Origin: Fidelibacterota bacterium
GTDB taxonomy: Bacteria; Fidelibacterota; Marinisomatia; Marinisomatales; UBA1611
Direction: 5' to 3'
Assembly (NCBI GenBank): GCA_028338895.1
Contig: JAOLAV010000004.1
Span: 1 to 55,630, forward strand
DNA: 55,630 nucleotides
Shown here: positions 2,935-3,448 of the stretch, piece after piece
Position numbering within the stretch: the stretch's first letter is position 1
How the letters are laid out: the number at the start of each line of letters is the position of its first letter
Program-made: the position numbers and the translations under genes
The notes under the pieces: generated by a model
What the model was told of the DNA's origin: nothing
The model's input: only the letters and a program-made list of their open reading frames with translations
Database searches by the model: none

Positions 2935-3082
2935 TTTTTTACTTTTTTTAATATTCTCAAATATACAAAAGTATGTTTTTTAAAATCTTAGTATTTAACA
3001 AAAACTATTTATTTAAATTGAAAAATTAAAAATAGTATATTGTGCTTATAAGAAATTTATTGTTTCAAAAAAGAGAGGAAAA

Positions 3083-3448
3083 ATGAAAAAATTTATATTA
3101 TACCACAACCCCAGATGAGGTAAAAGTCGAGAAGCCGTGCAGCTTCTAAAAAAAGAAAATATAGAATTTCAAGTTATTGAATACCTAAAGAACCCTTTGT
3201 CAAAAAAAGAAGTTCTAAGTCTTTCCAAAAAGCTTGGAATTCCACCATCTGGTTTCATAAGAAAAAGAGAACCCGACTTTAAGCAAAACAATTTAAATAA
3301 AGATATTGAAGACAATGAGAAAATAGCGGAAGCTATTTCCCTATTTCCTAAAATCATGGAACGACCCATTGCTGTTATTGGTGAATGTGCTGTTATTGGT
3401 CGGCCTCCAGAAAAAGTATTAAGTTTATGGATTAAGGAGAATAAATAA
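3083..3448 (+). CDS. arsC: ArsC/Spx-family arsenate reductase-like protein, probable selenoprotein (UGA 3116-3118 as Sec)
   Basis: ATG(3083) with GAGAGG RBS; reading through TGA gives MKKFILYHNPR(U)GKSREAVQLLKKENIEFQVIEYLKNPLSKKEVL...RPIAVIGECAVIGRPPEKVLSLW. ORF track begins only at 3137. Confidence 0.85.
3130..3147 (+). promoter_or_regulatory. Candidate bacterial SECIS hairpin
   Basis: AGAAGC-CGTGCA-GCTTCT: 6-bp perfect stem, 6-nt apical loop with G as its second nucleotide; loop starts 17 nt after the TGA. Confidence 0.65.

Follow-up and report, generated by a model that had tools for sequence, protein, structure and literature searches.

The question raised by this locus is whether a TGA standing in frame near the start of an arsC-like gene ends that gene or is read as selenocysteine (Sec). 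Within the window, by which we mean the whole 55,630-nucleotide stretch of DNA that was analyzed, the frame begins MKKFILYHNPRUGKSREAVQLLKKENIEFQ when the TGA is read as U; the TGA is codon 12, and the frame is open thereafter up to a TAA at 3446 to 3448 (Table 1). We put the probability at roughly 95% that the product is a thioredoxin-fold oxidoreductase of the ArsC family in which Sec takes the place of the nucleophile Cys12, as was predicted in an earlier note on this DNA; cysteine homologues, TGA at the same codon in relatives, a covarying hairpin, the use of TGA as a stop, and other Sec genes of the host all support this prediction. The start proposed in the earlier note, ATG 3083 behind a GAGAGG ribosome-binding site, was likewise found as described, as was the truncation of the gene to an internal GTG in the ORF track: the table-11 ORF list reduces it to 3137 to 3448, a 103-amino-acid fragment. 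The entire window was also scanned for further in-frame TGA codons between open flanks, which revealed no other convincing selenoprotein, and Rfam had no match at gathering score anywhere in the window.

Table 1. Positions of the predicted selenoprotein gene, its recoding signals, and its putative active-site arginines
Feature	Position in window	Strand	Basis
arsC-like selenoprotein gene (predicted), 121 aa with U12	3083..3448	+	Frame reading; Pfam ArsC and TIGR00014 scores of the U12C version
RBS-like GAGAGG, upstream of ATG 3083	3073..3078	+	Direct reading
In-frame TGA, predicted to encode Sec in place of the catalytic Cys12	3116..3118	+	Homologue and structure alignments
SECIS-type hairpin, 6-bp stem AGAAGC/GCUUCU, loop CGUGCA 17 nt after UGA	3130..3147	+	Folding, covariation, bSECIS model search
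Arg60 codon, corresponding to R773 ArsC Arg60 (catalytic arginine)	3260..3262	+	85/85 homologues; solved-chain alignment
Arg94 codon, corresponding to R773 ArsC Arg94	3362..3364	+	83/85 homologues, remainder X; solved-chain alignment
Arg107 codon, corresponding to R773 ArsC Arg107	3401..3403	+	83/85 homologues; solved-chain alignment

With Cys in place of U12, the product scored 51.9 bits against Pfam ArsC (PF03960; gathering score, 24) and 105.7 bits against the TIGR00014 arsenate reductase (glutaredoxin) equivalog, which is 0.35 below the curated cut-off of 106.05. With the equivalog cut-off missed, the predicted product is assigned to the broader ArsC family only. The note had named an ArsC/Spx family, of which the ArsC half stands and the Spx half does not: Spx/MgsR identity was rejected on scores of 40.1 bits against TIGR01617 (cut-off, 75.05) and 31.3 bits against NF002459 (cut-off, 123). 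Among solved structures, the nearest are arsenate reductases or putative ones (3rdw, 3f0i, 2mu0, and 1i9d), and U12 lies opposite their catalytic Cys, exactly where the TGA had been claimed to sit. Arg60, Arg94, and Arg107, the active-site arginines in R773 ArsC, are all kept, so that the nucleophile position (U for C) and all three arginines are present in the arsC-like product.

Comparison across relatives bears directly on the identity of codon 12. Nearly all of the 85 distinct homologues belong to the same phylum, Neomarinimicrobiota by their best named matches, the named relatives being Candidatus Neomarinimicrobiota/Marinimicrobia. TGA recurs at codon 12 in 67 of them, and the anticipated Cys homologues make up the other 18 (10 with TGC and 8 with TGT); no other residue occurs there. 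Across the phylum, 245 genomes were searched; the gene is present in most of the host's own family and scattered farther out, mostly with one internal TGA. It is hardly credible that the gene is dead, its nonsense codon being real, or that the GTG-3137 fragment alone is made: that fragment is indeed all that the table-11 listing offers, but it lacks the active site and its GTG lies inside the hairpin loop, there is no further frame break, and the frame is kept across species that have the TGA, together with N9, U/C12, R60, P89, P95, and R107.

The hairpin beyond the TGA provides a further line of evidence. The note had described a SECIS-like structure starting 11 nt past the TGA, with a 6-bp stem and an early loop G, and every part of this description was confirmed: arms at 3130 to 3135 and 3142 to 3147 enclose the loop CGTGCA (3136 to 3141), in which G is at position 2. 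As outlined in PMC13188914, the bSECIS model has a G among the first two loop nucleotides with G or U next after it, a loop 16 to 37 nt from the UGA, and an upper stem of 4 to 16 bp, an outline into which the window hairpin fits (loop at +17, 6-bp stem). A strict bSECIS-like hairpin was found in 49 of 60 TGA genes versus 0 of 17 Cys genes (Fisher 4e-10); after synonymous reshuffling, the same strict model matched in 4.4% of cases for the TGA genes and in 3.3% for the window gene itself. When the limit was relaxed to 5 bp with two G-U pairs, all 60 TGA genes except L097 had a match.

Covariation points the same way. In class 1 (36 genes, with the loop 17 nt past the UGA), 97.7% of cells are paired, and changes on both sides occur at 3 of the 6 pairs, giving stem versions such as GAAGC/GCUUC, GGAGC/GCUCC, and GAAUC/GAUUC. 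The covariation score was 0.454 versus 0.240 in shuffles (0/500), every slid register was much worse, and nearly all class-1 genes have the loop motif CGUG. At the class-1 and class-2 stem sites, Cys genes are paired in 51% and 39% of cases, which is the shuffle level; the hairpin is thus maintained through compensatory changes in the TGA genes and is missing from the Cys genes. A minimum-free-energy test was weak because short hairpins have little energy (mean z, -1.45 for TGA genes versus -0.31 for Cys genes; Mann-Whitney P, 3e-4), and the weight is carried by the covariation and model tests instead. An error of sequencing or assembly that hid a true TGC or TGT would require a single substitution, and the host assembly is a draft (1.18 Mb in 74 contigs, 55% complete), but 67 distinct homologues from many species share the TGA at this codon, and the hairpin that goes with it is missing from the Cys-codon genes, which makes such an error exceedingly improbable.

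The ArsC selenoprotein family carries its hairpin in two registers, with the loop either 17 or 30 nt after the UGA. In the 19 class-2 genes the class-1 stem is lost, and another stem, for example GCUGUUG-CGUGA-CAACGGC, places a CGUGA loop at 30 nt; this stem is 99.2% paired, with both-side changes at 4 of its 7 pairs. The class-2 hairpin encodes LLRDNG or LLRDSG, and its carriers are mostly of one family (f8). The class-1 loop region encodes A/S-V at residues 18 and 19, and residue 19 is Val in class-1 Sec genes and Leu in most of the Cys genes listed. We would give even odds to a reading in which one orthologous gene has its SECIS at two places, either because the signal moved and Sec stayed or because Cys forms gave rise to Sec twice, and in which the enzyme may be a Sec-dependent redox protein unrelated to arsenic. 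In genus g2 of the host's own family (f1), the class-2 Sec-ArsC genes (L026, L028, and L030) nest within the f8 sequences with starred support, as if by horizontal transfer between families. A few TGA genes fall outside both main classes (L082, L091, L097, L106, and L111), with loops of at most 5 nt or at +22, and their hairpins may be further SECIS variants.

Cys12 is used by one genus of the host's own family (g10) and by several outer groups, and the former is a candidate Sec-to-Cys reversion. Three of the four genomes with the g10 Cys12 genes (L022, L029, L034, and L037) nevertheless have SelB above its cut-off. Parsimony gives a tentative 7 to 9 Sec/Cys switches in the family on a poorly resolved tree (117 columns, 85 rows), and any history of the two hairpin registers read from this tree would be equally tentative.

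The host genome contains further genes of the same kind. Its full selD (L046:478-1510, G000:C45) carries an in-frame TGA at SG-U-ACK, and selenophosphate synthetase is therefore itself a predicted selenoprotein. Four of ten AhpC-TSA matches have TGA at the catalytic Cys (TPGU twice, TWUGGC, and FYUGTC); these peroxiredoxin/thioredoxin-like genes, L137 (C6), L138 (C1), L139 (C42), and L140 (C1), are followed by hairpins of varying strength. The loops are similar to that of the arsC-like gene, being CGGGAU and CGUGAU in the peroxiredoxins and, by eye, CGGGU in selD. Counting selD, the four peroxiredoxin/thioredoxin-like genes, and the arsC-like gene, we predict at least six selenoprotein genes in this genome.

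Of the Sec machinery for which the earlier note had suggested a search, selD was thus found, with its own TGA, while searches of the 55%-complete assembly turned up no selA, selB, or tRNA-Sec. Five sub-cut-off matches to the tRNA-Sec model were rejected as ordinary tRNAs (Leu, Met, Phe, Tyr, and Cys), and the SelA match as covering 37 residues at 17 bits. The SelB matches were also rejected: they lie in frames of 414 and 601 aa, and their lengths and scores are those expected of EF-Tu and of a LepA-size GTPase, respectively. Incompleteness is the likely reason for the missing genes, since SelB is above cut-off in 53 and tRNA-Sec in 36 of 61 genomes (the host and 60 relatives), both being widespread in the host's family and order; at the stated completeness, three unlinked genes would all be missed with a chance of roughly 0.45^3, or ~0.09. 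The sister genome G001, which is 60% complete, likewise yielded neither SelB nor tRNA-Sec, though it holds peroxiredoxin-family matches with an internal TGA. The missing SelB and tRNA-Sec would also be expected if the whole genome read TGA as Trp, Gly, or Cys, or if TGA were leaky, selenium playing no part. The chance of this is very small given the occurrence of SelB and tRNA-Sec across the 61 genomes, the placement of in-frame TGA at Cys-aligned redox positions (ArsC, SelD, and the four peroxiredoxin/thioredoxin genes), a hairpin constraint that tracks the TGA codon, and the 10 of 50 window ORFs that terminate at TGA, the last in agreement with the claim that TGA serves as a stop elsewhere. 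Sequencing error, a dead gene, and a genome-wide code change are all very unlikely in view of the TGA/Cys pattern among relatives, the hairpin, the Sec genes of the host, and the TGA stops.

If the gene is translated as a selenoprotein, SelB would bind the hairpin (loop CGUG) and bring Sec-tRNA-Sec to the UGA, and the ribosome would continue to the TAA at 3446. By analogy with ArsC, the selenolate of U12 should act like Cys12: following R773-type ArsC chemistry, and held by Arg60/94/107, it may attack an oxyanion such as arsenate, or else a small disulfide or oxidized thiol. U12 would afterwards be reduced by a low-molecular-weight thiol, glutaredoxin, or thioredoxin. As a pointer to the reductant, glutathione synthetase was looked for in the host genome, with an ambiguous result, a weak ATP-grasp match of 30 bits.

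What the enzyme acts on is a separate matter, as a true selenoprotein with an ArsC active site could serve as a general, glutaredoxin-like oxidoreductase and not in arsenate detoxification, a possibility to which we give a little less than an even chance. No Acr3 was found in the host genome, Acr3 is above cut-off in only 12 of the 61 genomes, and it is missing from several Sec-ArsC genomes that are at least 95% complete (G003, G008, G038, G039, G051, G057, and G058). The window neighbors of the gene are an Lrp/AsnC regulator, glutamine synthetase, an asparaginase domain, and an endonuclease/exonuclease/phosphatase (Exo_endo_phos) protein, several of which recur in relatives; no arsenic genes flank it, and arsenate is therefore only a putative substrate. 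The 0.35-bit shortfall against TIGR00014 leans in the same direction. Against a general redox role stand the retention of all three arginines and the nearest solved relatives being arsenate reductases or putative ones; moreover, the pump search covered Acr3 and left out ArsB-type pumps. The asparaginase-domain neighbor, a 164-aa ORF at 782 to 1276, consists of the N-terminal domain alone, and its homologues lie near arsC in many relatives and directly upstream of it in genus g10.

The predicted enzyme resembles several known systems. With the R773/E. coli-type, glutaredoxin-linked ArsC (1i9d and 1jzw; 3rdw, 3f0i, and 2mu0) it shares the HNP-x-C12-xxSR motif and Arg60/94/107, but it differs in having Sec for Cys12, no adjoining ars operon, and a score narrowly below the equivalog cut-off. 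Spx/MgsR and "arsenate reductase 2" are ArsC-like thioredoxin-fold relatives, the latter with UxxC, whereas the motif here is UxxS. The NCBIfam UXX-star glutaredoxin-like (seleno)proteins (NF041211 and NF041212) are also thioredoxin-fold Sec proteins; the local similarity is weak (residues 5 to 49), and membership was rejected because the score, 20 bits, falls short of both cut-offs (100 and 66).

The closest counterpart is the UxxS arsenate reductase selenoprotein (COG1393/PF03960), which is alike in fold family, Sec at the nucleophile, UxxS, and a downstream bacterial SECIS. The note had mentioned ArsC-like selenoproteins from marine metagenomes, and the literature agrees: an ArsC UxxS selenoprotein was reported with 14 Sargasso Sea sequences in 2005 (PMC1088965) and 77 "ArsC 1" sequences in GOS in 2008 (PMC2398784), and a UxxS arsenate reductase appears in the TIGR00014 row of a 2026 catalogue (PMC13188914). 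The window gene is thus an addition to a family known from ocean DNA since 2005. The parts of these accounts consulted give no phylum for the sequences and no mention of two hairpin positions in one gene family, within a literature search that was not exhaustive, whereas here the long-known "marine metagenome" family is assigned to genomes of the Neomarinimicrobiota type, its hairpin covaries, and its SECIS has two registers. Standard ORF calling drops the active site of this enzyme and keeps the 103-aa fragment alone. Sec and Cys orthologues with two hairpin positions amount to a usable natural experiment in how a SECIS originates, how it moves within coding sequence, and how it constrains the protein.
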